In this document: positions 5,930 through 62,828 of the stretch, piece by piece
Layout of the letters: each line of letters starts with the position of its first letter
Position numbering within the stretch: the first letter of the stretch is position 1
NCBI GenBank assembly: GCA_030765065.1
Contig: CM060990.1
Coordinates: 277,105,341-277,169,340, forward strand
From: Deroplatys truncata
Taxonomy: Eukaryota > Arthropoda > Insecta > Mantodea > Mantidae
Length of the DNA stretch: 64,000 nucleotides
Reading direction: 5' to 3'
Program-made: the position numbers and the translations under genes
Notes under the pieces: generated by a model
Database searches by the model: none
Told to the model about the DNA's origin: nothing
Seen by the model: the letters and a program-made list of their open reading frames with translations, nothing else

Positions 5930-6653
5930 TATTATTATTCTTCCTCCCTTACAAACATTAGGCCCTTATGACTTATTACAAGGCTCTTGGAACTGTTCTA
6001 TCCATCTTCTTTGTGGTCGTATCCTATGTCTCTCTATCCATGTGGTTTATATACTAATGCTTCCCTAGGAAATCTTAAAAGTAGCATCCTTTGCACATGG
6101 TCCTTCCACTGCCACTGATATTGCTGTATTTTCTCTATCACATATTCATCCAATTGTTCCCTTTATCAACATTTCTAAGTCAATCTGCTTTTGTTACTCC
6201 CAATATTGATCTTAGAAATCTCATCTGTGCTGCCTCTGGCCTTGACTTCTCACAGTTTCCAAAGCACCCATGTTTCACAACCATATTTCCCTTCTCATAT
6301 TTCTTCCAAAATTCCTTTTCATGCATCCATTAAGTTTATTATATTTCTCAATATTTTCTTCAATATCTGCTTTCCTTTCACTGAAAGATATTTTAGATGC
6401 TTAGCTAATGTCCTATGGATCTTAGTTTTATTTCCCTTCTCATATTTTTTCCAAAATTCCTTTTCACGCATCCATTAAGTTTATTATATTTCTCAATATT
6501 TTCTTCAATATCTGCTTTCCTTTCACTGAAAGATATTTTAGATGCTAAATATTTGAATTGCCACTTGTTCAATCAACTTTCCCTCCATTACTATTTTCAC
6601 TCTCATTTGTTCTTTCCGCCTCATGGCCATAACTTTAATTTTCTCACTTGATA
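5930..6653 (-). mobile_element. LINE-A, 3' segment (outermost host of the nest)
   Basis: The minus strand resumes an RT reading that starts at 18.4 kb: a SSEKIKVMAMRRKEQ block, a KLIEQV block and a KYL-type block, the order seen after the catalytic RT core of insect LINEs carrying KTKVMAF and IIEQVNSFNYLG motifs. Near 6060-5950 an RPQRRWIEQF-like end block marks the C-terminus. The segment contains a 145-bp-period tandem duplication. Tigger (6654-16527) interrupts it; the missing amino acids between RT and this segment lie in 16528-16553 and beyond mariner-1. Several stops and frame changes show it is old. Confidence 0.7.
6286..6546. repeat. Partial tandem duplication, 145-bp period, within LINE-A
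   Basis: The about 116 bp at 6286-6401 recur at 6431-6546 with few differences, beginning TTTCCCTTCTCATATTT. Twenty-nine bases separate the copies. It is a local duplication of LINE-A coding sequence that breaks the frame. Confidence 0.9.
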
Positions 6654-6983
6654 TAGTAAAACCTTGTTAATCCAGACCCATTTAAACCGAATTTCACTTA
6701 ATCTGGACAAGCATCCTTAAAACAAATCTGTCAATTGTTAACTTAAATTATAGTACTACACTAAGACAAGCTTAAGGAAATTGTCCATTTTATTTTTAGA
6801 CAAACCGTACAATAGGCATATCTTGGGAATACCAGGAATACATTAGTGACAATGGTACATTAGGCTGCCTCCCTTTCCACACCCTTGCTATACCTGTGAT
6901 AGGGCTTGCAACTATTGTCAGAAGGGTTAGTTTAACACTTGCCTTTCTCAATCATTAAGCTAAAGAAACAAATCGAGTGCATA

Positions 6984-7330
6984 ATGTCGTTTCGTAAACC
7001 TACATTATCAGCGGGGAAACATGAGCATAAATTGCTTACAGTATACGAGAAACTGAAAATTATCAAAAAGCTTGAAAATGCTGCCATTGTAGCGTGTGTA
7101 TATGCAGAATATGGAATTGCAAAACAAATAGTTTTGGACATAAAAAAGAAAAAGGGTGAAATCTTATCATTTTTTATTAAATGTGATGTAAATGAGGAAA
7201 ATTGTCAGGTCAAACGAATGCAGCAGCCGGCTGAACAAAAGACGTGACATATAAGTGGTACGAATAATTTCGTGCGAGCGGAATTGCAGTGAGAGGTGTT
7301 GAAATTCAAGCTGCTGCCGACCATCTTTTC
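6984..7330 (+). pseudogene. Tigger transposase, N-terminal DNA-binding part
   Basis: This part starts at ATG 6984 (MSFRKPTLSAG). It encodes the paired helix-turn-helix of pogo/Tigger/Jerky proteins: LTVYEKLKIIKKLEN, then YGIAKQIVLDIKKKK. A stop at about 7245 is followed in another frame by KWYE-type and GIAVRGVEIQAAADH sequence, so at least one frameshift lies here. The remaining reading is cut at about 7330 by the LINE-B 3' tail. Confidence 0.85.
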
Positions 7331-7345
7331 ATTTCAATTCAATTC

Positions 7346-7781
7346 TTTATTACTCATATAACTTGTGTTACAAGCCTAGAACATAGTCAAAAGCTAATAC
7401 ATGTATAATACAAGATATTAAAAAACATACAAATAAAATTAAAAAGGTAGTATTTCTAGTCTATATACAATTTATTTTAATTTAATAGCTCTTCTAGTCT
7501 GTATGGGCACATTTAAATTAGATACCTTTTTAGCTGTTTATCAAAAGAGTTTTTTCCTGAATCATTATTGCTCATATAACTTGTGTTACAAGCCTAGAAT
7601 GTAGTCAAAAGCTAATACATGTATAATACAAGATATTAAAAAACATACAAATAAAATTAAAAAGATAGTATTTCTAGTCTATATACAATTTATTTTAATT
7701 TAATAGCTCTTTTAGTCTGTATGGGCACATTTCAATTAGATACCTTTTTAGCTGTTTATCAAAAGAGTTTTTTCCTGAATG
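7346..7781. repeat. 218-bp tandem duplication at the 3' end of LINE-B
   Basis: The unit starting TTATTACTCATATAACTTGT recurs 218 bases later as TTATTGCTCATATAACTTGT, with very few differences across the whole unit. It duplicates the last RT codons (CPYRLKELLN-type end) and the 3' untranslated region. The high identity suggests that the duplication is younger than the decay elsewhere in LINE-B, or was part of the source copy. Confidence 0.95.
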
Positions 7782-7978
7782 ATCTTTTATACTTTTTGGT
7801 ATGGCATTATATAGTATCATTCCTATTATAATTGGATCCTTTGTTGAAGCCTTGTTTATGTGTAATCTATGATAATTTATGCTTCCCCTGGTGTTATATG
7901 AGTAAATGTTTGTATTTTTAATAAGTAGTTTGTTTTGAGCCAAAATAATTACTTTATATACATAAATAGCAACAACTG

Positions 7979-9625
7979 TTAGTATTTTATTCTTTTTAAA
8001 GGTTGGTTTCTATGTATGTGTAGTTTTAGCTGATAAATACAATGTATGCATCTTTTCTGTAATAATAATAATAACCTATTTAATTTTGTAACCCTACACC
8101 CTCCCCAAATATCAATGCCATATTCCATATATGCATATATTAATCCATAGTACATGGCACTAAGTTGTTGTACATTAAGGTAATGTGAAAAGTATTTTAA
8201 TAAATATATGTTTCTTGTGAATTTTTTACCCACTTCATTTACATGAGTTTCATATGTTAGGTGTTCATCAAGGTATATCCCTAAGAAATTATGGATAGAC
8301 ACCTGTTCTACTTTAGCATTATCTAGTTTTACATTTATGTATTTTAGTTCTTCACTTCTGTTTCGCTGGTGCCGAAAATGAATCAATTTGGTTTTTTTAA
8401 AATTTAATTTGAGAGAATTAGCAATAAGATAATTTGAAATTTGTGCTAAATCTTGAGTAATTTTATTTTCTAGTTGCAGCAAGTTTTTTCCTTTGCAAAT
8501 GAGTGAAGTGTCATCTGCATATGATGTAAGTTTACTCTCAGTTGAATCCACCAAATCATCTATATATATATAATGAAAAGCAATGGTTCTAAAACGGATG
8601 CTTGCGGAACCCCAATTTTTACATTTTGAGTGTCTGATTGAACTAATTTTATATAGTTTCCATACTGCCAATATAGTTCACAACATTGTTTACGATTTAC
8701 TAAATAAGAGTGTAGCATCTTATTTATTTTTCCTCTTAGTCCATAAGTTGCTAATTTTGTTAATAACATTTCATGTGACACATAGTCAAAGGCCTTAGAT
8801 AAGTCTAAAAACAGCCCTATAGTATTTTCACCCTTATCAATATTTGTCAGAACTTTATGAATGAATTCTACAGAAGTACTAATAGTTGAATATCCCTTTC
8901 GAAATCCATGTTGGGAATTTACTATAATGCTATTAGCATTTAAGTAACTTATAGTTTGTCTTTCTAATACTTTTTCATGTAATTTAGCAAAAACCGATGT
9001 CAAGGTAATAGGCCTGTAGTTTGTCTTGTCCATTGTATTGTCAGTTTTGTATATAGGGCACACCGTACTGATCTTAAGTTTTTCAGGGAAGGTATCTTCA
9101 TTAATCGAATAATTTACCAAATACACCAATATATCTATTAGGGCATGTTTGCATTGTTTAAGCATAACAGGTGAAAAACCATTCCATCCACAAGATCTCT
9201 TGCTCTTAAAGACATTTATTAATGTGTTTAATTCACTAGTATTTGTTTGATTTACATACATAGATTTGGATATATTTCTATTGCCATCTTCCATTTTATT
9301 TTTGGCAGTAGTATTTCCAATATTTACAAAATAATTGTTGAACATATTGCTAATGTTGACAGGGTTTGTTATTATGTCTCCACCTCTGTCTAGGCAAATA
9401 TGTTTTTGCTGTATTAGTTCTAAATTTTTTTTGTTTATTTATAATTTTCCATATTGCTTTAGTTTGGTTTTCTGAATTAGCAATTATGTCCAAATAGAAG
9501 TTGGCTTTATTTGCTTTCAGTGCTGATCTATAGTATCTCTTATACTCTCTATATAATTTTTTATATATATCTAACTTAGTAACCTTATAATAATCATTAG
9601 GGCTAGGATTTTTATTATAGGGCAT
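7979..9625 (-). pseudogene. LINE-B reverse transcriptase and C-terminal thumb
   Basis: Three overlapping frames cover RT. Frame 9625-9350 holds the linker (LYREYKRYYRSALKANKANF). Frame 9345-8560 has fingers and palm, with KTNYRPITLTSVFAK, SQHGFRKGYST, FLDLSKAFDYVSH and GVPQASVLEPLLF. Frame 8671-7979 has the second palm Asp pair (YADDTSLI), the LNFKKTKLIHF block, FLGIYLDEHLTYETH and YGIDIWGG. The expected GS of GVPQGSVLGPLLF is AS-E here. Two frameshifts separate the blocks. Confidence 0.85.
9590..9597. repeat. Left 8-bp hAT target-site duplication
   Basis: ATAATCAT abuts the left inverted repeat of the hAT and matches the eight bases at 11883-11890 exactly. Eight-base duplications are the hAT hallmark. 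Confidence 0.95.
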
Positions 9626-11882
9626 ATATTTTTTGGTAGCACTGACATGCTCCTTAAATACATATAAATGCTTCTTATGAAACAGCGAAATGAATTAACC
9701 TAATTTGTTAAGTCATATTTTTGCATATATGGCCATTTCTCTCTGATAGAGCATATTTTAGTAAGTAAATGGTCATATTCATCATATTTTCACACTTTCA
9801 AGAAGAAAAGAACTTTCTCATGCAATTTATTTATTCCGTGTTACATTTCCCAGAATTGCGCACCTCATTTCGTTTCCTGGAAAATGGCAAGTATCTACCT
9901 TCCTTCCCTGTTTCCTTTGAATTCACAATATGGACTTCACCCTTACACATCAGTGAGTTTGTGTAAGCTTGTTACTCTATGAACAGGTAGCTGATTAAGT
10001 CATTCTGGACTCTGGACTGCAGACAAGTGTCTAATTCACTCATTGTGTTATTCAGTCTTATTGAAGTCGTAAGCGTGTGCAGTACAGTTCAGAAATAATG
10101 CATAAAGTGAAGCAAAATATTCAAGTAAAACTAAAAAACTTTGTGTCTCAATATGGTGAGAAAGTATTTTCAAGTAATGGTAAAATACTGTATTGTAAAC
10201 TGTACAACATAAGAGTAACTGCAGAGAAGTCATTTAATGTTCAGCAGCATGTGGCAACAGATAAACACAAACGTGGAGTACAGTGGATTGAAAATGAAAA
10301 AACCTACAGCAAATGCTCCTAGTGGAATCCCACCAGTCTTATTCACCATTCTGCGAAGAACTTTGTACAGCTTTCCTTTGTGCTGATATTCCCTTAAATA
10401 AACTAAGCCATCCAAAATTTCATGAATTCTTAGAAAAATACACAGGCAAACCTCTTCCTGATTCTTCCACATTAAGAAAGAACTTTGACAGCCGAAGCTA
10501 TGAAAAAACAATACAACAAATAAGACAACAGCTCGTAAATAAAAAAATTGGGTATCAATTGATGAAACTACAGACTCTATGGGAAGATATATTGCAAATG
10601 TCATTGTGGGAACTTTGAAAGAGGATGGTCCAGGCGAAAAGTTTCTAATAAACTGTGAACATTTAGAAAAAGTAAATTTTTCCACCATTTCTAAGTTGTT
10701 CGACAGATCTATGGGTGCCATATGGCCCGAAGGTGTTAAGAATGGCAATGTACTTCTCTTTGTAACGGATGCTGCACCTTATATGGTGAAAGCTGCCGAT
10801 TCTCTAAAAGCATTGTACAGTAAAATGGTGCATGTAACTTGTTTAGCTCATGCCTTGCACCGAGTTGCAGAGGAGATTCATAGTAAATTCAGTGATGTTG
10901 ACAGATTTATTGGATGTGTCAAAAATATATTTTTGAAAGCCCCTTCACGTGTTGCAGCACTTAAGTTGTTAGCTCCAGACATTCCCTTGCCACCATCTCC
11001 CATTTTGACAAGATGGGGGTCCTGGGGTTGGTGCCTGCAACTATTATTCCCAGAACTTCAACCTTATGAAAAGCATCATTGATTCATTCGATAGCAGTGA
11101 AGCTACTTCAATTGGACTAGCTCAAGAATTAATGTCTATGGTGAAATTTCAGGCAAACTTTCATACATAAAATCAAATTTGGATTTATTCCAGCTGTCAT
11201 AACTGCTTTGGAGGAATCAGAAGTGCCACTGGTGAAGCAGATAGAACAAGTGAAAAAATTTGTGAATAAATTAGAGGGTGTTTGTGGTAAAGTGAGAAAA
11301 GAAGTGTCAACGAAAATGGAAAAGGTGTTAGAAAAAAACAAAGGGTATCATACACTGTGTTCCATTTCAATGATTTTGTTGGGTAAAAAGTTCTCTCTTA
11401 ATCATTCAGATTTAGATTCAAATGATATTGTTCATTTTAAATATGCTCCTCTGGTGTCAGCTGAAGTAGAAAGGAGCTTTTCGAAGTACAAGGCTTTGTT
11501 GGCTGAAAATAGGAAATCTTTCTCATTTGAAAATTTGCACAAGGTCTTCATTGTGTATTGCAACTCAGAGCTTATATGAAGTAGAATGGGGATGTAAAAA
11601 GTACATAGGTTAACTATGTTCCTATAATGTTAATAAAAATCATACTGGAATGTCAAATTGCATAGTTTAGCTTGCTTCTCATGTGCATTTTATTCTCAAA
11701 TAAAGAGTTCATTATCAAAACTGACGTACTAATTTATTTTACAATAGAAATTTTACCTGATTTTAATATTGTTAGGTCATATTTATTATGTTATTGTGCA
11801 TATTTTGGTAAATGTTTGGTCATAACAGCATATTTTTTATGCATATTATGGTGATTTTTAGGTCATAAATATCCTAGCCCTA
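9598..11882 (+). mobile_element. hAT transposon (CGBP1-like) inserted in LINE-B
   Basis: The ends are perfect 12-bp inverted repeats: TAGGGCTAGGAT at 9598-9609 and ATCCTAGCCCTA at 11871-11882. The 8-bp duplication ATAATCAT flanks both. The element is 2285 bp. The coding strand is plus, with transposase pieces from 10098 to 11579. Removing the element and one duplication copy restores a sensible LINE-B reading (KEMYDYYKVTKLDIYKK), which proves the insertion. The element also has subterminal GGTCAT-like repeats (for example 9710-9780 and 11775-11865). The transposase has about three frameshifts, so it is non-autonomous now. Confidence 0.95.
10077..11579 (+). pseudogene. CGBP1-like hAT transposase, frameshifted
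   Basis: The order matches CGBP1-type hAT transposases. A BED-like finger lies at 10098-10290 (LYCKLYNIRVTAEKSF then H-x4-H); the expected second Cys is Tyr, so the finger is damaged. FHEFLEKYTGKPLPDSS follows, then NVLLFVTDAAPYMVKAADSL with the catalytic-type TDAAP Asp at about 10768, then VTCLAHALHRVAEEI. After SPILTRWGSWGW comes a frame break. The C-terminal dimerisation region (APLVSAEVERSFSKYKALL) lies at 11446-11510, the hAT signature near the third acid. It ends at TGA 11577-11579. The four segments lie in three frames. Confidence 0.85.
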
Positions 11883-11890
11883 ATAATCAT
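11883..11890. repeat. Right 8-bp hAT target-site duplication
   Basis: ATAATCAT directly follows the right inverted repeat and equals the left copy at 9590-9597. Confidence 0.95.
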
Positions 11891-11909
11891 ACATTTCTTT
11901 AACTTTATT

Positions 11910-13231
11910 TCACAGTAAGCTCACCTCATAGCTAAGTGTTTGTTTAGGGTTTAGTTTACTACTATGTTCCATAGATTTTTTAGTTATGGGGCATAAAATA
12001 TTTAGGTAATAGCTGAGAGTATTAAAGAACTGGTTCCATTTTTCCTCAATATTATCTGCACTATATACATTATTCCAATCCTCTTGTAGCATCATCTTAT
12101 TCAGTTCATTAATTTTATTCTCACTTGTGCCCCTTGTAAAAGTATAATATTGCCCATAAGTTTTAGGTTGACAATTAAAAATATCTATTATTTGTGAGAT
12201 ATGATCTGAAATATGAAGCTCATTATTAATAGTTGTATATTTACTTTCTTTTAGATTAGTTATAATGTAGTCCAACATGGTACTCGATTGGCTTGTAGTT
12301 CTAGTTGGACCCAGAAATGAAGTAGCATCGTGTAGATTAAAGCTTTTTAATAGATCAGGAAATACACAATTACCTACATCTATGTTAAAATCCTCTACAA
12401 GAATAATATTTTGTTTATGAGCAGATAGTTTATTTAGTAATAATTCTAGCTGTTTTACAAATGTTTCTACTTTTGATTTGGGTGATCTATAAATTCCCAT
12501 TATAATTATAATCCCAATTCAGTAATTAATTTCACACCTGCTATTTCAAAATCCATTTCTATGCAGAATTTTGATAGATTATTCATGGGACCGCATTATA
12601 TCTCCCTACCAGCATAAATTGCAATGCCTCAACTTTTATGTAGATTTCTACAATAAGAAGCAATTGGTTTATAGTTACTAAATGTATGTATTTTTAGTTC
12701 ATCTATCTTTAAACCATGTTCTGAGAGTACCATAATATGAGGATTAAGTTGCTGCAGTATGCTTTCTATTATATCTATTTTATTACTGATATATTGTATA
12801 TTTTGATGTAGTATTCTAAGCACTGAAGAATTAATTTTATTGCTACTATGGGAGAAGTTAAGTATATCTTGTGGGGAGACAGTTACATCCCCAGAAATTC
12901 TACCCATACAGTCTAGAATTACAGGATTATTTATCCTAACTTTTAATAGTTCCATATCTTTTATTAATTTGATTACTAAATACTTTTTACCTTTTTCATT
13001 CAATTGTGATCCATGTTTTGTATAAAATTCCCTGTTTAAATTACTTATATCTATTAAGACTACATTCTGATTTTCTGAGCATAAAAGTTTCATTTTCCTG
13101 TTTGTTTTCCTAATTTCTCTATTTATGAGAGAGTTATACTCTAAATCATGTCTATGTGGAATGTTTGCAATGATTAACTGCTTATTACTAAATGTAATAA
13201 TTGTTTCACTGAGCACATTTAAAAGTTTCAC
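11910..13231 (-). pseudogene. LINE-B endonuclease domain
   Basis: Two frames make an apurinic-type endonuclease. The 13231-12629 frame ends with the N-terminal strand (HQNIQYISNKIDIIESIL, LNPHIMVLSEHGLK, the last being the usual S/TE motif). The 12500-11910 frame holds MGIYRSPKS, ILVEDFNIDVGN (Gly of GDFN replaced by Glu) and SSTMLDYIITN then HISDHISQII, the SDH catalytic motif. The segment around 12510-12620 is frame-broken. In the family this domain nicks target DNA for primed reverse transcription. Confidence 0.8.
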
Positions 13232-13282
13232 TGCTTCATTGCAACATATATCATTTGTACTAGTTATTATAACCTTAAATTT

Positions 13283-14459
13283 TTAATTTATGTTTATATT
13301 TGCTATAACATCCCTAATCTTGGCATTTGGTTTAACATATCCAACAACATCAAAATCACTCATATCACAGATTTTCACTGCTAACCCCCTGGCGCAACTA
13401 TTACCATGAATGCTTACTTTCAATTTTTGTTTACCTGTTGAGATGTTTTCCCTTTTAACACTTCCCGGTGTGGTGTTTGCATTCACATCTTCTTTCAGGC
13501 AAAGGAACAGTTCATATTGATTTCCATTTGATGTATCATTACATGTGGTGATACATTAATTACTTATATGGCTCCCAGTATCTGAGTTTACACCGCTATT
13601 TTGCAATAATCATTTTTTGCTACTAGATAAGATATCACTCTGTACATCAAGCTACCAAGGTTTCCAGATCCCTTTCTATTCATATGAAGACCATCTCTCC
13701 CTAAGTCCCATTTATTTAACCATAATTTTCCCATCTAAAAAATACAATCGTTTTGTTTCCAAACCCAGTCGAGTGTAGAGTTTACAGCACTTATATATTT
13801 AGAGTCCTCATCCCTACAATACAAAATTCCACTAACACACAATTCTGCCCTTAGAATTGTACTTTTACCTTTTTCACTAAACTTTCCATTTTGTTTATGA
13901 TTTCTTCTGGAGAAGTTGACAAATAAAGATTATTAGTACCTACATGTAGTATTATGGCATCTGGATCACCTTCATTTTCCACCAACTTTCTCTCTAATCT
14001 TGATCCCTGGGTAGCAATATTCCTGGGTGTCTTTGTTCAAGTATTCCCCTACATGACGAATCATTGAATCCCCTAGCACTATAGCAGGTCTCTTCACATA
14101 CCATTTACTTTTTTCACTTGTTGATTTTTCCGAGCAGCTGCTGTAACTTCTTTCTTCTCCTTCCGTTGTAGATTCTTTTGTATTTCTTCGCAAAAGGTTA
14201 GAGTGTGTATTTAAAGTGAAGTTAGGTTGGCTGTTTGGAGTCGAGTTGATTGATTCTTGTTCCAGTACTTGGAACTTATTCTGGAGAGGGATACGCTATT
14301 TTCTAGAACTTGAGTCTTCTCTTTGTTTATGCGTCGATCACTGTTTTTTTTTCGTACAGTAGTCCAACAGTCATCTGTATTTACGCTTTGATTCTGTTCC
14401 CGATACTTGACTTCATCGCTTTGGTTAATCTTGTTGAGTAGTACGTAATTTTCCGACAA
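13283..14459 (-). pseudogene. LINE-B ORF1-like region with SGNH-esterase-like motifs
   Basis: Frame 14459-14211 contains DDCWTTVRKK, a linker often found in CR1/L2-like ORF1 proteins. Frame 14193-13972 contains RPAIVLGDSMIRHVGEYL; the GDS triplet is the nucleophile-Ser block of SGNH hydrolases. Frame 13486-13283 has a related VSIHGNSCARGLA block. Esterase domains of this type are known in ORF1 of several LINE clades. The frames are separated by stops. Assignment rests on motif recognition only. Confidence 0.5.
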
Positions 14460-14494
14460 TCTTCTCTACTTGTGGCCCGCACATCTACTCCAGT

Positions 14495-14660
14495 ATCAGC
14501 CTCAAGGCGTAGCCGAGAGATTGAGGGCCCTCAGCCTCAAAGCGTAGCCGAGGGATGTTTTTTAGAAGGAGAGGAGTGTAGCAAGTTGCGGCCGATAGGC
14601 CGCAACTGCGAAGCGACGACAGGGCGTAGCCGAGGGATCTGCGCGTCTAAAACTCCAATC
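14495..14660. repeat. GC-rich minisatellite and perfect hairpin near the LINE-B 5' region
   Basis: GCGTAGCCGAG(A/G)GAT occurs three times, at about 14506, 14541 and 14624. AGTTGCGGCC at 14584-14593 and its exact complement GGCCGCAACT at 14598-14607 form a 10-bp hairpin with a GATA loop. The stretch is far richer in G and C than the rest of the window. Confidence 0.85.
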
Positions 14661-15077
14661 ATTCACGTTCAGCTACTTCGACGGGCCACAACTAAAACAA
14701 CTTTGCCTAATTTTCTTCCCTTAATCGTTGTATCTCTCCACGCATGTTGAATCAGCCAAAGCTTCATCCAAATCCTTGTTTAGAATTTCAATGACCATAC
14801 GAAGCGAAGCAACGCTCTGATCAGTACCTCGTAGGTTGTCATTAGATATATTTCCCAAGTGTTTAGCATTACTAAGGATTTCTACACTGTCCATATTTCC
14901 ACTATTTTCTGCACTCAATATTTCACTATTGCACTCATTGAATATGGTATTTTCACATGTATTCTTTTCATTTTCACTGTTTTTTGTATCGGCGGCCACT
15001 TCACCGGCTTCTTGACCTGGCACCATCTTGATCTTCTCTCTTTCCCTTGTGAAACAACTTGGTATCAATGGATTTTC

Positions 15078-16315
15078 GGCTAGTTTAGGCTGGTTATACA
15101 TACAGATTCCGCAAGCGTCATAACGTAGTGAACAAAAAAATGTGTGGAGAGAGCTTAAGTGCTGATACATCAGCTGTTGACCCATTTAGAAAAAAAACTA
15201 AAATCTATTATTCAAGAAGAAAAGTTAGATTTGTCTCAAGTGTATAATGCCGACGAGACAGGTCTATTTTGGCGCGCCTTGCCCGAGAGCACGCAAGCCT
15301 CCAAATCCTTTAAAATACGCCTGGACGAAAAATTTGCAAAGAAGGCGTTTCTGCGTTATTGTGTGCTAATGCAGATGAAAGCTATATTTAAAGCCATTTG
15401 TCGTAGGTAAAATTAAACAACCAAACGCTATTAAGAATGTAATGTCCATTGCCTGTGCATTACTACGATTCAAAAAATGCGTGGTTTAGGCAGACATTGC
15501 CCATGATTGGTTTTACAACCATGCTGTACCTGCAATAAGAAGGCACCAAGTAAATAAAAACCAAAATGTTGTGAGAGCCACAATCCTATTAGATAATGCA
15601 CCTGCGCATCCAGATGCAAAGAAACTGTGTAGTGCCGATGTTAAGATAAAATGTGTGTTCTTGCCACCTAACACAACTTCCCTGATACAGCCGATGGACC
15701 AAGGCGTTATCTACACTGCAAAGCGGTTGTACAGAAAGAAATTTCTGTCTGAAGTTTTCGAAGTTGAAGAGCCTCTAGACGGTGAAGATAAACGGACAGA
15801 AAAACACTCCAGAATATAAAATCGTATGATTTCAGATCCATGATTTTCAATTTTGCAAGTGCAGTAAACAGCATTTCGAACACTACAGTGACTAATGCGT
15901 GGAAGAAACTTTTGTATGATGACAGTGTTGAATTAGACACCAATGCAATTTAATTAAATGACTTTCACCAAACACTGGTTGCGGGTGGCGGAAAGCTGTC
16001 ACAGTAGATGAGATCGAAGACTGGCTTGATAGAGATGAAGATCACATCATGACTGACGAAGAAATTGTGGAAAGTGTAAGCAATACAAGGGACACTAGTA
16101 GCAAATCTGAGGCTGAGGATGTGGATTTCGGAAAGTCGAAAGTGAAATTAAGTGAGGTTAAACAGGATCTGAATTGTGTAATAGACTTTGTCGAGAAAAT
16201 GAACTGTGTAATAGACTTTGTCGAGAAAACTGGCAATAAACAAATTTCCGCTTACTACCATCATATGAGGAGTCTTTGTGATCTCATTGTGAAAAATATG
16301 TGTGACAGACCATAA
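15078..16315 (+). pseudogene. Tigger transposase, DDE part
   Basis: After the LINE, GWLY then RFRKRHNVVNKKMCGESL follows with a 4-base insertion (ATAC) near 15098. The pogo-type catalytic motifs YNADETGLFWRALPEST and LLDNAPAHP are intact, as is PNTTSLIQPMDQGV downstream. A stop at 15487-15489 interrupts the block between them. A 30-bp tandem duplication at about 16171-16230 doubles the CVIDFVEKMN segment near the C-terminus. The frame ends CDRP then TAA at 16315. Functionally this would be the strand-transferase domain; it is now inactive. Confidence 0.85.
16171..16230. repeat. 30-bp tandem duplication in the Tigger transposase
   Basis: The run AACTGTGTAATAGACTTTGT and its continuation occurs twice in direct succession with two or three differences, giving a doubled CVIDFVEKMN. 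The duplication keeps the frame. Confidence 0.85.
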
Positions 16316-16553
16316 AAGAAAATTGATAGTTTCTTCAAACCAAACAAATAAAGAATATGTAATTAAAATCAGGCGAGCCTATTCCTATCTTACGTTCCAA
16401 TAAAATTATACAGTACTCTAATTTCATTCACAATTTTTCTCTGAGGTGTTTATTACACTTAATCCGGACTTTTGATAATACGGACAACATTGAGCCCCAA
16501 TTGGTCCGGATTAACGAGGTTTTACTGCATTTGCGTATTATATCCTTTTATTG

Positions 16554-17876
16554 CGAGGGCAAATCAAAAGTCTTTGCCCCCATTTTTTTCTGGTAACATA
16601 AGATACATACAGCCAACTAAACATGCAGATATTATTCCTTGTACCTTTCACTATTTTTCCACATAGTCCCCGTGTCGGTTCAGGCATTTGTCCCATCGCA
16701 GCACTAATTTTGCGATGCCGCTGCGGTAGAAGTTGGGCGTCTGACTACGAAACCACTGTCGCACTGTTGACTTGACTTAGTCGTCGCAAGTGATTCGCTG
16801 TCCTGCCAGGAACTTCTTCAGCGGACTGAAAAGATGAAAATCACTAGGGGCAAGATCCGGGCTGTATGGTGGATGCTCTAGAAACTCCCAGTGAATGTTC
16901 CTTATCTTGCCGACGCTCTTGTTTGCCACATGTGGTCTCGCATTGTCGTGGAGGATAATCACGTTGTCAACATCGAGAATCCCGCGACACTTCTTTCTGA
17001 TCGCAGCCCGCAGAAGTGACAGTGTGGAACAATATCTGTCGGCATTGACGGTGGCACCTCGCAGCATGAAACCCAGCACTAGCAATCCTAGAATGCCGTT
17101 AACATCACTTTGTGAACAGATGGCGTAGTACGGAATTTCTTTTTCACAGGAGACTGCGAATGTTTCCACACCATACTCTGCTATTTTGATTCCGGCGTGT
17201 AATGCAGTACCCACGTTTCATCGCCAGTAACAATGCGATCCAGGAAATTGTCACCCCCCTCGGCATATCGTTGCAGATGATTCAAAGAAGCAATCATTCA
17301 CTTGCATTTCATCACGTCATCCAGCTGCTTAGGAACCCATCGACATGAAACCTTCCTGTACCCTAAGCACTCGTGAATGATGTCGAAAGCACTCCCAAAA
17401 GAAATGTCGAGCTCCTGAGCAATGTCTTTGATGCGCACGCGCCGCTCTGCTTTCACCATCGCATCCACGTGGGCAATATTGTCATCAGTCACCGATACAC
17501 GCGGTCTCCTCGCACGCTCGTTGTCATGCAGATTTACACGGTCATTTTCGAACTCAGAACACCACCATCTCACACTTCTCAAAGCAAGACACCTTTCCCC
17601 ATATAATGGCTGCATTTCGCTGTGGATCTCGATGGTCGTTCGTCCATTACTCCATAGAAAATGGATCACACTTCGTTGCTCGTAAGTCGTGGACGTGTTA
17701 AACACACCTGCCATTTTGAATGCACTGACAGCAGCACTGCCGCCAGCAGCAGCTGGAAACCCTATGATGACCGGCCCATGAAAAGTCCACTACGTCGAAT
17801 GTATATGTTGGTTTTTGTTTTACCTTTCGTAATTTAGCCGAAAAAAATAGCGGCAAAGACTTTTGATTTGCCCTCG
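16554..17876 (-). mobile_element. Mariner-1, inserted in LINE-A
   Basis: Inverted repeats CGAGGGCAAATCAAAAGTCT (left, from 16554) and the exact complement ending at 17876 bound a 1323-bp element, the usual mariner length. The right flank is TA; the left is TG, so one copy of the TA duplication has mutated. The minus-strand transposase runs from 17714 to about 16651. The flanks read as LINE-A sequence on both sides (LNKI before, K-GYNTQM after). Confidence 0.95.
16651..17714 (-). pseudogene. Mariner-1 transposase (DD34D type), frameshifted
   Basis: This part starts MAGVFNTSTTYEQRSVIHFL. It has the first helix-turn-helix (WSNGRTTIEIHSEMQ), the linker (DNERARRPRVSV), the second HTH (RIKDIAQELDISFGSAFDII), the KVSCRWVPKQL motif, IVTGDETWVLHY (first Asp, about 17232), ILHDNARPHVA (second Asp, about 16925) and YSPDLAPSDFHLF (third Asp, about 16836). 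A frameshift lies near 17214-17298 and an in-frame stop follows TCDD at 16775-16777. The end GDYVEK and stop lie near 16651. All three catalytic acids remain. Confidence 0.9.
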
Positions 17877-18420
17877 TATTTTATTCAATTTAAGTATTGA
17901 ATTTTGCAACTCCTCTTCATTTTCCATTAGCAATATCTGAACATTTGCAAACAAAATGCTTTCTATTTTACTCTCATTTATTCTTAGTTCCTTGGGTTTA
18001 CTAGTGCTTCTCCATTCTTCTATTATTCTGTTCATATACAAGTCAAATAGTATGAGTGACAACCTGCGCCCTTGTCTCAATCCTGTATTAACTTCTAAAA
18101 TGTTCTTATGTTTATCCAGTTTTAGTTTTGCATTACTATATAATGCCTTGATTGAGTTTATCAAATTAAAAGGTATCTTATATTCTTCCAATATGTGCCA
18201 TAATTTCATGTGATTGGCTCTATCATATGCTTTTTTATAATGCAAAAATAATAGACAAGTTTATAAATTGTATTTACTGCTTTTCTCTAAAATTTCTTTT
18301 GCTGTAAAGATTGCAGCTATACATGATCTCCATTTTCTAAAACCATTTTTTTACTTAATCTGTTAATTGCAAAGTTGTTTCATCAAGAGTTGGAGCCTTT
18401 AACTTAAGCCTTTTCATCCT
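17877..18420 (-). mobile_element. LINE-A, RT core segment
   Basis: The minus strand carries RT palm blocks: NGFRKWRSCIAAIFTAKE at about 18345-18290, then KKAYDRANHMKLWHILEEY, LINSIKALYSNAKLK and NTGLRQGRRLSLILFDLYMN. ESILFANVQILLMENEEEL at about 17970-17910 is where the catalytic ADD is replaced by AN-V. It stops at mariner-1 (17876), and LNKI at the border continues beyond it in 16528-16553. Stops upstream near 18235-18360 confirm decay. This is the oldest layer of the nest. Confidence 0.75.
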
Positions 18421-21605: not shown

Positions 21606-22405
21606 CTACTTTTCGACATAGTCACCAAGTTTCTCAACACATTTCTCTCGTCGTGATACCAGTTTCAATATGCCCTGTTCATAGAAGTCCGTTTCGTTGG
21701 AGTATAGCCATCTGCAGACTGCTGATTTCACTTCTGCATCTGTCACAAAGCATTGGGCGGCCAGGAATTTTGATGAAAGTCTGACGGTGCACGGTCCGGA
21801 CTGTATGGTGTATGCTGGAGCATCTCCCAACTAAATTTGGTGATTTTCTGATGAACAGCAGCAACATGGGGGCGAGCATTGTCATGAAGAATTTTGACAT
21901 CATCAGCATTCATGTTGTGGCATTTGTCACGAAGGGCATGGCGCAACTTCACCAAAGTTTTCATGTAGGTTGCAGCATTTACAGTGGTCCCGTGTTCAGT
22001 AAAGTCCACCAATACAACACCATGCATATTCCAGAACACCGTCACAAGCACTTTCCTAGCAGATTGAGTCACTTTGAATTTTTTCTTTACTGGGGAACCA
22101 GCATATTTCCACTCCATACTTGCCTGATTGGTTTCAGGCATGTAGTGGTATGCACACAACCCATCACCAGTGACGATTCCTTTCATAAAGTAATGCCCTT
22201 CTGCGGTGTACCGCGTTAGGTGATCTAAGCTCGTCATCATTCGCTGGCCCTTGTGGTTATCTGTCAGGTTTTTAGGCACCCAGTGAGCACCAACTTTACG
22301 AAATTTCAATGTATCATGAACAATATCGCACACTGCACCATAGGAAATATTGAACTGTTGTGATAAGGTTCGCATTTGCACACGCTGGTCGTTCAAAATT
22401 GCCAC
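21606..22405 (-). pseudogene. Mariner-2 transposase, second HTH and catalytic domain
   Basis: Contains RTLSQQFNISYGAVCDIVH (second HTH), VGAHWVPKNLTDNHKGQR, IVTGDGLCAYHY (the usual IVTGDETW is IVTGDGLC, with the catalytic Asp kept), VLVTVFWNMHGVVLVDF, ILHDNARPHVAAVHQKI (second Asp) and YSPDRAPSDFH (third Asp). A frameshift lies between about 21743 and 21830. The C-terminal piece EKLGDYVEK ends at 21606. It is close to the mariner-1 type but a different subfamily by terminal repeat. Confidence 0.88.
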
Positions 22406-22406
22406 C

Positions 22407-23547
22407 TGTAGCGTTTTGCCGCTACTTTGTTGTGTTACTCTTACCTCTGCGTCATTGTAGGGTGAAGTCTTCAGGACTCGAGGTCGCCGATATCAGTCAG
22501 GAAGCACTTATGGACGTCGCATCTCAGGGTCAACTGTCGGCGAGTCGGTCTGAAATTCCCTACTGTTATTGTCAGGGTAGGATTGAAGGGAGGGTGACGC
22601 TAGGATATTATTCTTGAATAAAACGTTTTCACTTCCTCACTAAACGCATATTCCTGCCAGAAAACCTGCAAGATTCTTGTTCTTTTTCTACCCGTGCGGT
22701 TCTTATATAAGAATATTTTCACCCTTTGGTCCACAAACATTTTGCTCCGGCTAATTATTTATTATTCAAGGTGCTCTATCACCATTCTTTTGATTCCCAC
22801 GAACTTGAATTCATTACTTGCGGCGTGTTAAGATATTTATTATCTTGGATAAAATAATTTCAACGACAATCTAACACGCTTTATAATTATTCCACACGCA
22901 TTAGTTTATGATTGCACTGTGGTGTGGCACTTCATAAATTTTGGAGCTTTTATCCCTTTCTTTCTTCTTTCACTCAACGTGATGCGTGTTTCCTTACCGG
23001 AGAATCATGGCAGACTGTCCCAAAACCACGCTCGCATTCACATATCTCAAAGACTGCTCTCCTCCAAATTTTATATATGTCACTGCGTATTCCTATGTTT
23101 CTATTGGTTCTCTCACTTATTCTCTGTGTTTATTGGTTCCCTGGTTGAAAATTTAAAGCTTAACTGTAGGAAATGTCCATTGCCTCATAGCGTCTGTTTG
23201 CTTGAAAACTTGTCTCGCACCAATGAAGTACAAAGGAAGGTTTCGATTTTTATGGCCCCACTCTCGGAAAACATAATGAACAGTCTAAAACAAGCTACTC
23301 TTATTCTGGCCTAAATCTTGCAGTTTTTCTCATGCAATTACGGCTTTATTTATTTTACAATATTATGGAAACTTAAAACATATTTACAGCTTATAAAGGG
23401 ATTTCGATTGATACCATTTTAATCCTATGGCTTTAAAATTATGGAAATTTATTAAATTGAATCTTAATTAATTATTAATAATTCCTAAAATATAATTATT
23501 ATAGAGTTACTTTTTATGGGTTCTTAATGGGCGGAAAAATCGCTACA
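22407..23547. mobile_element. Probable solo LTR (fossil) inside mariner-2
   Basis: The 1141-bp insert begins TGTAGCG and ends CGCTACA, the TG...CA form of a long terminal repeat, with the 7-base terminal inversion extendable to TGTAGCG-TTTT-CCGC. A 4-bp duplication CACC flanks it (22403-22406 and 23548-23551). No internal coding region was recognised, so it looks like a single LTR left after recombination. A TATATAAGAA promoter-like stretch lies near 22717. Family is uncertain: Ty3/gypsy and BEL/Pao LTRs both can start TGTAGC with 4-5 bp duplications. It is younger than mariner-2. A MITE with TG-CA ends is the alternative. Confidence 0.6.
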
Positions 23548-38680: not shown

Positions 38681-39928
38681 CACTATGTGATCAAAAGTAT
38701 CCGGACACCCCCCACAAACATACATTTTTCATCTTAGGTGCATTGTGCTGCCACCTACTGTCTGGTACTCATTATCCGCGACCTCAGTAGTCATTAGACA
38801 TCGTGAAACAGCAGAATGGGATGCTCCGTGGAACTTACAGTCTTCAAATGTGGTCAGGTGATTGGGCGTCACTTGTGTCAGAAGTCTGTATGTGAGATTT
38901 CCACACTCCTAAACATCCCTAGGTTTACTGTTTCTGATGTGATAGTGAAGTGGAAACGTGAAGGGACATGTACAGCACAAAAGCGTACAGGCCAACCTCA
39001 TCTGTTGACTGACAGAGACCGCCGACATTTGAAAAGGGTCATAAAGAGTAATAGGCAGACATCTATCATGACCATCACACAGGAATTCCAAACTGCATCA
39101 GAATCCACTCCAAGTACTATGACAGTTAGGTGTGAGGTGAGAAACCTTGGATTCCATGGTCGAGCGGCTGCTCATAAGCCACACATCATGCAGGAAAATG
39201 CCAAACGACGCCTCACTTGGTGTAAGGAGCGGCAACATTACACAATTGAACAGTGGCAAAATGTTGTGTGGAGTGACGAATCATGGTACACAGTGTGGCA
39301 ATCTGATGACAGGGTGTGGGTATGGTGAATGCCCGGTGAACGTCATCTGCCAGCATGTGTAGTGCCAACAATGAAATTCGGAGCTGGTGGTGTTATGGTG
39401 TGGTCATGTTTTTCCTGGAGGGGGCTTGCACTCCTTGTTGTTTTGCATGGCATGATCACAGCGGAGACCTACATTGATATTTTAAGCACCTTCTTGGTTC
39501 CAACTGTTGAAGAGCAATTCAGGGATGGTGATTGCATTTTTCAACATGATTGAGCACCTGTTCATACTGCATGGGCTGTGGCGGAGTGGTTACATGACAA
39601 TAACATCCCTGTAATGTACTGGCCTGCACAGAGTCCTGACTTGAATCCTATAGAACACCTTTGGGATGTTTTGGAATGCTGACTTCGTGCCAGGCCTCAC
39701 CGACTTACATCGATACCTCTCCTCAGTTTCGCACTCCATGAAGAATGGGCTGCCATTCCCCAAGAAACCTTCCAGCACCTGATTGAAAGTATACCTGCGA
39801 GAATGAATGCTGTCATCAAGGCTAAGGTGGGCCAACACCATATTGACTTCCAGCATTACCGATGGAGGGCGCCATGAACTTGTACGTCATTTTCAGCCAG
39901 GTGTCCGGATACTTTTGATCATGTAGTG
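38681..39928 (+). mobile_element. Tc1-like element, nearly whole
   Basis: Inverted repeats CACTATGTGATCAAAAGTAT (left) and the complement of CACTACATGATCAAAAGTAT (right) with TA duplications at 38679-38680 and 39929-39930. The length of 1248 bp is normal for Tc1. The repeat continues as CCGGACACC on both sides. One transposase frame fills it (38816-39877). Confidence 0.97.
38816..39877 (+). pseudogene. Tc1 transposase, 353 codons with three in-frame TGA codons
   Basis: Starts MGCSVELTVFKCGQVIGRHL. First HTH and second HTH run to about residue 110, including QKSVCEISTLLNIPRFTVSD and GRPR-like TGQPHLL. The catalytic acids are visible in VVWSDESWYTVW (first Asp, about 39275), CIFQHD-APVHTA (second Asp, about 39548) and [16 protein letters not shown] (third acid Glu, about 39655), a DD34E arrangement. 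The whole stretch stays in one frame to TGA 39875-39877. Internal TGA codons are at 39326-39328, 39551-39553 and 39680-39682; each is one C-to-T change from Arg CGA. Tc1 transposases are about 340 residues, so the length is full. Confidence 0.95.
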
Positions 39929-45908: not shown

Positions 45909-47206
45909 TGAGGGCTATCCCAGAAGTACCCAACCTAACAAAGAAAACACAACAATTTTGGGAAAAAAACATCTTTATTTCTCTACATAGTTTTCTTTCA
46001 GCTTGATACACTTTTTCCAGCAATGTTCAATAGCTTCGATACCCTATTTATAGTAAGAATCATCAAGTTCTGCAAAATAGCCATCAACTGCAAACTCCAC
46101 CTCTTCATTGTTGGCAAATCTTTTAAAATCAAGCCATTTCTTCAACTTTGGAAATAGAAAATAATCAGAGGGGGCTAAGTCTGGCAAATAGGGTGCATGA
46201 GGAAGCAATTCAAAATTTAACCTATTGATTTTGGCAATGGCAATAATGGATGTGTGAACTGGTGCATTATCTTGATGAGACAGAATTTTCTTTTTTGCTA
46301 AATGTGGCCGTTTTTGCTTGATTTCATCATTCAAATGCTGCGATAAGTTTGCATAATACTCGTCATTGATTGCTTTTCCTTCTTTAATATAATCAATTAA
46401 AATTATCCCACGCGCATCCCAAAAAACTGACGCCATGACCTTGCCTGCAGATGGAACTGTCTTTGCCTTCTTTGGAGCCAATTCTTCCCTTTCAATCCAC
46501 TGTTTTGACTGTTCCTTCATCTCAGGTGTGAAGTGATGGACCCATGTTTCATCCATGGTTATGAATCGATGCAAAAACTTGGTTTTATTGCAGCAAAACA
46601 TCGCCAAACACTCGACCGATACATCCCCATAATGCTGCTTTTGTTTCATTGTGAGTAAATGTGGCACCCATCTTGCGCACAGCTTTCTCATGTCTAAATT
46701 TTTGGATAGTATGCAATGTACAGCACTTTTTGAAATGTCTATGATGTCTGCTAGCTCGTGTACTTTCAGTCGATGGTCATCCAATAATACCATTTTGTGG
46801 ATTTTCTGCACAATTTTCAGCATGGTCACCTCATTTAGTCAACCACTGCAATGTTCGTCTTGGCAGCTCATACAGCCTTGCTTAAACTCTGCCACCCAAC
46901 ATTTTACTGTTGTAAACGAAGGAGCAGACTGCCCCAGAGTAGAATCTAGCTCAGCTTTAATATTAATTGGACTAAGACCTTTCAAATGAAAGTATTGTAT
47001 CACATAATGATGGCCAGTTTTATCTATGTTTACAAATTCACTGAGAGAGTTCACTATTAATGGTTGCCAAACAAATATTAATTAATGTAGCATCATCAAA
47101 CTTCAAACTTAAGCTTTATAAGGGTGGTACTTTCTACTATAGTCATTTGTTTGAAACAACAACCACTATATATACATCAGGTCGGGTACTTCTGGGACTG
47201 CCCTCA
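45909..47206 (-). mobile_element. Mariner-3, nearly whole
   Basis: Inverted repeats TGAGGGCTATCCCAGAAGTA (left) and TGAGGGCAGTCCCAGAAGTA (complement of right) with TA at 45907-45908 and 47207-47208. Length 1298 bp, standard. A single-frame transposase reads on the minus strand from 47054 to 45975. Confidence 0.96.
45975..47054 (-). pseudogene. Mariner-3 transposase, 359 codons with two in-frame stops
   Basis: Starts MNSLSEFVNIDKTGHHYVIQ; first HTH ends near VAEFKQGCMSCQDEHCSG. The second HTH has KVHELADIIDISKSAVHCIL; WVPHLLTMKQKQ is the WVPH-type motif. Catalytic triad: ITMDETWVHHF (first Asp, about 46555), LSHQDNAPVHTS (second Asp, about 46270) and LPDLAPSDYFLFPKLKKWL (third Asp, about 46160), the DD34D layout. 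Internal stops are TGA at 46839-46841 and TAG at 46044-46046; there is no frameshift over 1080 bases. It ends ENYVEK then TAA. Confidence 0.95.
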
Positions 47207-50414: not shown

Positions 50415-53400
50415 ATGGGCTCCTGGAACTGTGAGGGTTTAAAAAACAAGTTATATGTGGGAGTTTTGAAACAGCTGTTGTCTAAAGTGGATTATTTAGC
50501 GGTAGTAGAAACATGGTTAAAAGAGGAACAGATAAATATAAAGGACTTTGAATACATTGGTAGGAAAGGAGAGGTGATAGCTAGAAAGGGAAGGGTATCT
50601 GGAGATATAGGTTTCTTTATAAGGAACAGCTTAAATAAGGAAATTAAAGAAACATGGTCTAGTAGTAAAGAATTACTGTGGGTTATAATGGATGTTAAGT
50701 ACATAGATGGGAATATACTCTGTGTGGAATAATATATAACCCTCTCACATCCTTGCGGTTTCATAATCCTGATCTCCTTAATCAAATAAAAAAAGATATA
50801 GATAGGCTGAAGGAGAAATTTGTAACTGCAGAGGTAATACTAATGGGAGACTTTAATATCAGGATTGGGAAAATGTGATACATATGTTGGAAATGATTGG
50901 ATGAGTGTTGAAATTGTGTTTAAAAGTGAGAAATTTAGGCAAAGCAAGGAGAAAAATTTGTTGATAAAGAGTGTGAAAAATTTATTGATTTTTGTGAGAT
51001 GAATGCTTTGGAAATTTTGAATGGAAAATATGGGGAAGATGACCAAGGAGAACTTACCTTTGTTAGCAATAATGGGCAGAGTGTAATAGATTTTGTGTTG
51101 TGGCCTCCAAATTTAGGGCATATTTTAAGGAGTTTTAAGGTATTAAATTTAAGCTCAACTAGCAGGCATTATATACTTATTGTGGATTTCATGATGCACA
51201 CAGCACAAGTAAAACACAATATAAGAGTGGAAAGCTATTGTAAAAAAGAGTATATTAGCTATAAATGGAAAGAAGAATTTTGTGACACATTTAAACAGAC
51301 TCTAGATTCAAATTATGGAAAAGATATGTCTATGTGGAGTAACATTCATGGTTAAGAATAATGAGAATGCAATAGATATCCTTAATACAGTTAAGCAAAG
51401 GACGGGAGAGGAAATGAAAACAAAAAAGAGGTTTACATATATGATAAGGACTGGTTTGATGAAGAATGTAGGATATCAAAAAGACAAGTAAAACAACTGT
51501 TGGTTAGGTAGAGGGAATTAGGTGATAGAAAATCTAGGGATGATTATATGCAAGGGAGGAACTCACATAATTTATTGTTAGAGCAAAAGAAAAGGGACTG
51601 GAGAGAAAGTAATGAAAGGAATTTGATAAAGTGTGTAAATGAAAATAATGTTAATAAGGTATGGCAGGTTCTTAAGTCGACCTATAATAAATGTGTAACT
51701 AAACCCAATATTGAGCCAGGACAATGGATGGAGTATTTTAAAACATTATATGGGGAAGACAGAAGTATAGGAATTATGGGATTTCTGGAAATAGGGAATG
51801 TTTTTGTAGAGATATTGGATGGTGAAATTAGGAGTGAGGAAATAATAAAACAAGTTAAGTTACTAAAGAAAAATAAAGCTACTGGAATTGATGGCATCCC
51901 AACAGAGTTTCTTAAGGAGTGGTGTACTGAAACAGGAAGAGTGAAAACTTTATTAGATTTATTTAATGTAATTATTAGAAAGGATTATGTACCTAAACGA
52001 TGGAGGGAAGCTATCATCCATCCTATATATAAAGGCAAGGGTAATGTCGATAAACCTAATAACTACAGAGGTATTGCATTATTATCTAATATAGGAAAAC
52101 TTTTTTGCGGGCATTTTGGCAGCTAGACTACAATTTAGGGTTGAAGAATATAATATCCTTTCGGAATTCCAGATGGGCTTTCGCAAGGGAAGAAGAACAA
52201 TTGATAATTTATTTATTATAAAGACATTAGCAGACAAATATTTAAAAGTAAAAAGGGGTAAATTGCATATGGCTTTTGTAGACTTAGAAAGCTTATGACC
52301 GAATTGAGCTAAAACTTCTGTGGCATAAATTAGTGTGTAAGGGAGTAAGTCAGCAATTGGTGAATATTCTTAAAGCACTGTATTTTGAGAACGCCTTCTG
52401 TGTAAGGATGGAGACAGACTGTGTAAAAAGAGAAATTCAACAAAAGAAAGGCCTCGGGCAAAGATGTAAGTTAAGCCCAGTTTTATTTAATTTATACATA
52501 GATGATGTTTTACTAGAAATTGGAAGGAGTAATAACTGTGCACCAGTAATTAACAACATCCAAATCCCAGGACTTCTTTTTGCAGATGACCTAGTGGTAG
52601 GATCTATTACAGTAAGTGGTTTAAAACAATCATTACAAGCAATTGATGTATATTGTAAAGAATGGAGGTTAAAAGTGAATCAAGAGAAAACACAGATTGT
52701 GGTATTCAAAAAGGGGGGAAAATTAATCAAATATGAAAAGTGGAAGGGAGAGAATAAAGATTACAGGGTGGTGCGTGACTGTATTTATTTAGGAATAAAA
52801 ATAGATGGAGGTAATAAATGGGAGAAATAAAAGAAGCTTGCATTGGCAAAAGGTAAAGGGGCAATGGCAGCAATTAGAAGCTGCAAATATAGAGTACCTA
52901 ATATAAATGTTAAATGGCTGGAAAAAGTTTATGAGATGGTTGTGGAGGCAAAATGATGTATGGTATAGAAATATGGGGATTAGATAGAGGATGGGAAAGT
53001 ATAGATGAGGTGCACAGGATGTTTTGTAGAGAAATACTAGGGTTACCAAAGGCAATTGTAAGACAGGTAGCACAATTAGAGATGCACAGGGTGGCAACTA
53101 AGGGGAAGATAATGGAAAGAGCTTTGAAATTTTGGTTCAGAACTTTAAATCTAGGAAAAAGTAATGTGTTAAGACAATGTACAGAATACCAAGAGAATAG
53201 TTTAATGAATGATGGATGGGTAAGTAATTTACAGAACATTTTGGAGAAAAATGGGTTAGGAGACATGTGGAGAAGGAGAGAAAATAACATGAAAAATTTT
53301 TGGAAAAAGGCGAGGAAAAGACTGGAAGATATAGAAATACAAATCATGTTCAGTGAGATTGCCGAAAAGAGCTCATTAGTTTGTTATAGGCCAATGAAAA

Positions 53401-53738
53401 ATACATGGGGTAGGGAAAAATATATAGACATAGTAAATAAAGAAGAGAGAGAATCTATTGCATGGGTAAGAACCAGAGCATGGAGGCTAAGAGGGTTAAG
53501 ACAGGATATTCCTCAGAACCAATGTCCGATATGTGGTGGTAATGAAGACATTGAACACATAGTATTTAAGTGCCAAGGAACAGAAAACTGGAGAAAAGAA
53601 TTTTTTAATAAGAAGTGGTTGAAGGGGGATAGAAATACGCTTATGATCGAAATGATGTGCAAGGATGCTAAAAGCATTGGACAGTTTTTGAGTAAAGTAA
53701 AAAATAAATGGCTTTGGACAGTGGATAGAGAAAAGTAA
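50415..53738 (+). pseudogene. LINE-C endonuclease and reverse transcriptase
   Basis: Endonuclease: MGSWNCEGLKNKLYVGVLKQ, KVDYLAVVETWLKEEQ, ILMGDFNIRIGKM (about 50844) and STSRHYILIVD (about 51157, SDH-like). RT: KKNKATGIDGIPTEFLKEW, NNYRGIALLSNIGKL, LSEFQMGFRKGRRTIDNLFI, HMAFVDLES, LSPVLFNLYIDDVLLEI, then QIPGLLFADDLVVGSITVSG (about 52563, catalytic ADD intact) and WRLKVNQEKTQIVVFKKGG. C-terminus: YGIEIWGLDRGWE, then CPICGGNEDIEHIVFKC zinc-knuckle-like near 53525, ending NKWLWTVDREK at 53738. Several frame breaks. Confidence 0.88.
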
Positions 53739-54040
53739 GAGGTAGCGTATCTTACTTTGAGTGGAAAACTATAGTGAATGTGTGATGGCTAAGTAATCAA
53801 TAAGTGAAAAGTGAAAAACAAGTGGAAATGGGACATGAAAAAACTGAAAAAAACAAGACAATTTTTTGAAGAGAAATTGTAAAATGTAAATAATCTGTAG
53901 TGATTGTCTACAGAATGCGTTGATGGAAAATTGTAAACTGTAAATAAACTGTAGCAATTGTCTACTGAATGAGTGGCTAGGGTCAAAGTGCAGTAGACAA
54001 TCAAATTGTAAAACTCTTAGCACAATAAATACTATACATA
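53739..54040 (+). repeat. LINE-C 3' UTR with two repeat units
   Basis: A unit of about 60 bases, starting near AAATTGTAAAATGTAAATAA and ending around TTGTCTACAGAATGCG, occurs twice in the 3' UTR at about 53873-53925 and 53931-53980. A further CAGTAGACAATCAAATTGTA follows. The truncated copy at 60223-61540 has one unit, so the number varies among copies. Function unknown; such repeats may be bound by the element's own protein. Confidence 0.8.
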
Positions 54041-60205: not shown

Positions 60206-60222
60206 TATATATATATATATAT
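60206..60222. repeat. (AT)n microsatellite at the truncation point of LINE-C copy 3
   Basis: A run of AT dinucleotides abuts the first base of LINE-C homology (AACAACATCC). Such AT-rich stretches are common at 5' junctions of truncated LINE insertions. Confidence 0.9.
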
Positions 60223-62465: not shown

Positions 62466-62828
62466 TAAGTATAGTAATCTACTGTGTACTACAGTATACT
62501 ATTTGGTATATTATGTAGTAGTGAAAATATAATGAAGCAAAACCACCTTAGTATTTCATTATGTTTACAGAATAGAAACCTTTCATTTCTCAGTAATTCA
62601 AGAGCCCTACAGACTCTCTGCCTTATTTTGAACTTTTTTCTATAGTATTTCTGAGGTTTATACTCAGACATATCATCACCAAATCATACCTTCAGCATAC
62701 ATTCTGGCATGCTGATTAGATATTATTAAAGTTCAAGGACATGACATACCATCCATTATTAATAAAATATTGACTCTTATGATTCCTACTAAGACCACTA
62801 AATACATTAGTTTTATATCTGTTTTCAG

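Follow-up and report, generated by a model that had tools for sequence, protein, structure and literature searches.

A four-level nest of six transposons at a single genomic locus

In what order did the transposons at this locus arrive, and can ordinary insertions account for their arrangement? We examined a window of 64,000 nt, the whole stretch of DNA analysed here (C16:277105341-277169340 of a 4.29-Gb, probably insect, genome in 818 contigs), by direct reading and by repeat and frame scans; frames were compared with Pfam, and the same genome was searched for relatives of every element. As about 40 of the best candidates were scored per search, all copy numbers given here are minimum values, and the fetched subsets are best matches, a sample biased to well-preserved copies. 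A preliminary description had reported a four-level nest of five elements (LINE-A, Tigger, LINE-B, hAT and mariner). All five are present with the containment that it gave and the depth of four stands, but the count does not: a sixth element, here called E, lies in LINE-B and had been overlooked. The locus almost certainly arose by the serial accumulation of ordinary insertions, which stacked six transposons to a depth of four (Table 1). It displays containment, target duplications, empty sites in other host copies, reading frames that rejoin once the inserts are taken out, and a divergence gradient that nowhere runs against the nesting.

Table 1. Components of the nest, in window positions
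Feature	Position	Strand	Evidence and remarks
LINE-A 3' piece	5930..6653	-	matches other genome copies; frame continues in the LINE-A pieces past Tigger and mariner
Tigger left piece, CENP-B_N domain	6654..7327	+	left target TA 6652-6653
LINE-B 3' piece	7328..9597	-	has tandem duplication 7344-7779; final 8 bases are the hAT target copy
hAT	9598..11882	+	inverted ends, DUF659; duplication ATAATCAT at 9590-9597 and 11883-11890
LINE-B middle piece	11883..14453	-	first 8 bases are the hAT target copy, last 8 the E target copy
Element E, 254 bp	14454..14707	.	duplication TAATTTTC at 14446-14453 and 14708-14715; central palindrome 14585-14606
LINE-B 5' piece	14708..15031	-	ends where matches of 4/5 other copies stop (15030-15031)
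14 bases between LINE-B and Tigger	15032..15045	.	absent from Tigger and from all five LINE-B 5' ends compared
Tigger right piece, DDE_1 domain	15046..16527	+	right target CA 16528-16529, one base mutated
LINE-A middle piece, 22 unique bases	16530..16551	-	alignment with 9 LINE-A copies
mariner	16554..17876	-	target TG (mutated) 16552-16553, TA 17877-17878
LINE-A 5' piece, reverse transcriptase	17877..18355	-	RVT_1 E 3.3e-11; edge from copy comparison

In the Pfam comparison, both LINE-A and LINE-B (E 1.8e-14) contain RVT_1, which marks them as non-LTR retrotransposons. Tigger carries DDE_1 (E 4.4e-17) and CENP-B_N (E 3.9e-6), both over the curated cut-off, and is therefore grouped with pogo-type Tigger elements. 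The mariner matches, HTH_48 (E 3.4e-4) and Transposase_1 (E 0.0019), fall under that cut-off and are weak alone; its inverted ends form 63-nt arms that are 79% complementary, and TA adjoins the left end of 18 and the right end of 17 of the 19 fetched copies. Tigger and mariner have TA targets, inverted ends and transposase domains in common with the Tc1/mariner superfamily (Tigger/pogo-type, mariner), whereas, compared with such elements generally, the window copies are interrupted. In the hAT element, the inverted ends and the 8-bp duplication are those of the hAT superfamily; its putative transposase gives a DUF659 match (E 1.9e-13), as in that superfamily, and differs in a C-terminal frame that has no Pfam match.

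Comparison with other LINE-A copies shows how the outermost host looked when uninterrupted. All nine fetched copies are continuous across the Tigger site (seven gap-free nearby, two with small gaps near the junction) and across the mariner site (eight gap-free, one with small gaps). The limits previously given for both inserts withstood comparison: the two ends of Tigger (6654-16527) agree with the ends of other genome copies, 26 of 29 of which have TA on the right flank, and those of mariner are exact. With one target copy kept per site, LINE-A reads unbroken as LNKIIKGYNTQISSEKIKVMAMRR; with both kept, the frame shifts. The 26 bp between the two inserts (16528-16553) had been read as LINE-A codons, KGYNTQM; this is right for the 22 unique LINE-A bases, part of which two of the nine aligned copies (L064, L065) lack, but not for the other four, which are target-site copies. 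The M derives from a mutated target-site copy, and counting each site once gives KGYNTQISSEK. The right edge of LINE-A, formerly placed at 18420, holds as an outer limit only: of six copies compared at the DNA level, five lose similarity at 18349-18360 and one at 18417, which brackets the true edge at 18349 to 18417.

The second host, Tigger, was compared with 29 fetched copies (40 candidates scored, window copy included). Every one crosses the LINE-B insertion point, 25 without gaps and four with one gap position nearby, which bears out the containment of LINE-B in Tigger. The limits first proposed for LINE-B (about 7331-15077) require revision to 7328 and about 15045. Tigger copies show Tigger resuming at 15046, not 15078, so that some 32 bp assigned to LINE-B belong to Tigger. 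Among the five LINE-B 5' ends examined, the one that falls short of the common stop matches only to 15013; two of the five (L089, L090) have their outer flank in common, so either these copies are not independent or LINE-B extends further there. Removal of LINE-B within the corrected limits leaves the 14 bp listed in Table 1. CTT stands at both LINE-B/Tigger junctions, as a short duplication or as shared letters. Separately, two of the 29 Tigger copies (L029, L040) contain other long insertions.

Within LINE-B, the limits of hAT proved exact, as fixed by its inverted ends and 8-bp duplication. Ten hAT copies were fetched (40 candidates scored, window copy included): the ends are identical in all ten, and the duplication is exact in nine, with one mismatch in L077. 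The hAT site is crossed by 11 of 11 fetched LINE-B copies, eight of them gap-free nearby (gaps there total 7, 3 and 1 positions in the others), and the LINE-B frame joins when hAT is removed with one duplication copy. Stepwise removal, the check proposed at the outset, restores a contiguous host where Tigger, mariner and hAT are taken out, with nothing missing or overlapping; for LINE-B it does so only with the corrected limits.

Both LINEs also contain a tandem duplication that the preliminary description did not mention. The one in the LINE-A 3' piece spans 6284-6546 (118-bp repeat, 145-bp spacing), with units differing at 2/118 positions; that in LINE-B has a 218-bp repeat, with units differing at 7/218. 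Both look young, and the matches of other copies suggest that they are private to this locus.

Element E interrupts LINE-B a second time. LINE-B copies match as far as 14453 and resume at 14708, and the stretch between matches many other places at 97-100% identity. Its position in the 5' reading-frame region of LINE-B, together with three copies of a 19-bp motif within it, could recall a variable segment or minisatellite of LINE-B itself. This reading has next to no chance of being correct and is effectively refuted by empty sites and duplications: E is missing from all five LINE-B copies examined, two of which have small gaps near the junction, and it occupies many other sites: of 27 two-ended copies, 21 are flanked by an exact 8-bp duplication.

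The nest is known from assembled sequence alone, and one might ask whether part of it is a mis-join or chimera. Mis-joins would not give target duplications at the junctions together with host copies that run continuously through each site; these argue for genuine insertions and make an assembly artefact very improbable.

The order LINE-A, then Tigger, then LINE-B, then hAT is supported by other host copies, which are unbroken wherever an insert lies, by the rejoined frames and by divergence from consensus. We measured this divergence between each window copy and the consensus of the fetched copies, leaving out CpG sites and taking 95% bootstrap ranges; LINE-B was measured over 1.3 kb only, and for LINE-A one duplicated unit was dropped. 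The values are.083 (.065-.102) for LINE-A,.0415 (.033-.052) for Tigger,.0385 (.028-.049) for LINE-B,.0344 (.024-.046) for mariner and.022 (.016-.029) for hAT. Divergence falls with depth, from LINE-A through Tigger and LINE-B to hAT, without contradicting the nesting, and would, if it measures time, give the same relative ages. Among 2000 bootstraps, LINE-A lay above Tigger in 2000, LINE-B above hAT in 1996 and Tigger above LINE-B in 1312; since the Tigger/LINE-B step is within error, the precedence of Tigger over LINE-B rests on containment. None of the ten sampled hAT copies (0.7-2.1%, leave-one-out consensus) is as diverged as the one in the window (2.2%), which therefore does not belong to the latest wave of its family.

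The place of mariner in this sequence is looser. As previously described, it is younger than LINE-A, which lay above it in 2000/2000 bootstraps, and containment does not fix its order against Tigger. Mariner lay above LINE-B in 603 bootstraps and above hAT in 1948. Mariner may have entered LINE-A before Tigger, as neither insert contains the other and mariner divergence equalled or exceeded that of Tigger in 327 of 2000 bootstraps; the point estimates, however, make Tigger the older (.0415 vs.0344), as do the other 1673 bootstraps, and we regard mariner-first as the less probable order, though one with an appreciable chance.

On these grounds, LINE-A was the first arrival. Tigger and mariner, which from their family membership we take to be TA-targeting cut-and-paste elements, landed in it later, 22 unique bases apart. 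LINE-B entered Tigger next, presumably via target-primed reverse transcription. Finally, hAT and E entered LINE-B separately, each with an 8-bp duplication, E apparently being the last. A few observations fit this account less neatly: the divergences of Tigger and LINE-B overlap, two target copies (CA, TG) are mutated, the 14 bases at 15032-15045 match neither neighbour, several host copies have small gaps beside the empty site, and the window hAT is more diverged than its sampled relatives.

E is the most interesting part of the nest. In eight of nine copies fetched from the best matches it is identical to the window copy, and the ninth differs at 2/254 positions; with 0/254 differences from the commonest form, the window copy looks like the youngest element here. 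Such identity between copies spread over many chromosomes indicates very recent, perhaps ongoing, transposition. The first 61 bases have 134 exact genome matches and the last 61 have 107, against 0 for the reversed control. Among the 100 listed of the 134 five-prime ends, 75 have an exact 3' partner that is also listed; of these pairs, 45 span 254 bp and 30 have other lengths, from 172 to 578 bp. We further inspected 32 fetched loci with 33 five-prime ends, 27 of them with a recognisable 3' end; 18 loci had been picked for a missing exact 3' partner and two for odd length, so that shares in this set are not genome-wide rates. It is in this set that the 21 exact 8-bp duplications occur. Indels are present in 13 of its 27 two-ended copies, and 12 of the 13 lie within 3 bases of the central palindrome; the recurrent deletions there could serve as a natural assay of transposon gap repair. 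The target duplications lean to GAAATTTC. By eye, the inverted ends are imperfect, with 12 of the inner 13 bases alike and the outer 13 mostly unlike.

E is most likely a non-coding, non-autonomous DNA transposon. It is short (254 bp), non-coding and present in many copies, with a duplication of fixed length, as MITEs are. Insect MITE bursts, such as those in the silkworm, likewise involve many near-identical copies of short, non-coding elements with fixed-length duplications, as far as PMC2997013 sets them out; E differs from such elements in its imperfect inverted ends and in length variants that cluster at the central palindrome. A retrotransposed short element (SINE) would also be short, non-coding and abundant, and the T-rich targets and the imperfection of the inverted ends would suit it. 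Against it stand a duplication fixed at 8 bp (exact in 21 of 27 copies), the constancy of both ends and the lack of an A-rich or simple-repeat tail, and we consider a SINE quite unlikely. Known RNA genes offered no match: the best Rfam hit, U6atac, is sub-threshold (E 0.16), which also speaks against a SINE. On C2 (L103), two E copies separated by about 3 kb might suggest a single long element with E at either end; we reject this, as the first has its own exact duplication and the longest frame between them is 116 aa.

A bolder and unlikely proposal is that E is still mobile in this species. Its transposase would then come from a superfamily not yet described or assigned, which prefers palindromic 8-bp targets near GAAATTTC, and its central palindrome would repeatedly break, yielding shortened daughters in gap repair. 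One pattern scan for an autonomous partner returned two matches, L124 (truncated after 43 bp) and L125 (a related end), in which no transposase was seen.

Several loci add detail on E. Its core, about positions 43-217, also occurs outside E, at 83-89% identity in L101 and 71% in L102, as if it had been taken from an older, longer family, to judge from these resemblances. This GC-rich core appears in other sequence around E copies (L101, L102; by eye also L108, L116 and L120). In one copy, L122 (approximately 211-535), some 324 bp of foreign sequence interrupt the palindrome; L109 holds a copy that ends at the palindrome, and L123 two copies head to tail. By eye, the copies or fragments in L096, L103, L104, L117 and L124 lie at different points of one apparent host repeat.

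Transposon nests are ordinary, and nesting as a clock is already established. The TinT (Transposition in Transposition) method, as outlined in PMC3014933, orders insertions from nested transposons by containment, as was done here; it is statistical over many nests, whereas ours is a single nest resolved to the nucleotide. In plants, nested LTR retrotransposons, as presented in PMC6911290, are likewise transposons within transposons in large genomes, whereas the present nest, in a probable insect, is built of DNA transposons and LINEs and has no LTR elements. Our literature search on nested transposons, insertion order and insect genomes returned no paper, and we claim no novelty from that result. 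As a clear case in which divergence agrees with what containment and empty sites show, the locus can help to calibrate transposon ages in this genome.

Other parts of the window contain further features. Additional mariner-type (Transposase_1) and Tc-type (HTH_Tnp_Tc3_2) transposase frames lie at 21743-22492, 46044-46838 and 38807-39328. The segments 52551-53772 and 60222-61436 are 94% identical, and the first overlaps a reverse-transcriptase frame (52288-52830). A host-gene-like frame at 62811-63488, with weak, below-cut-off matches to Kazal_2 and Amnionless, is reminiscent of the end of RECK.
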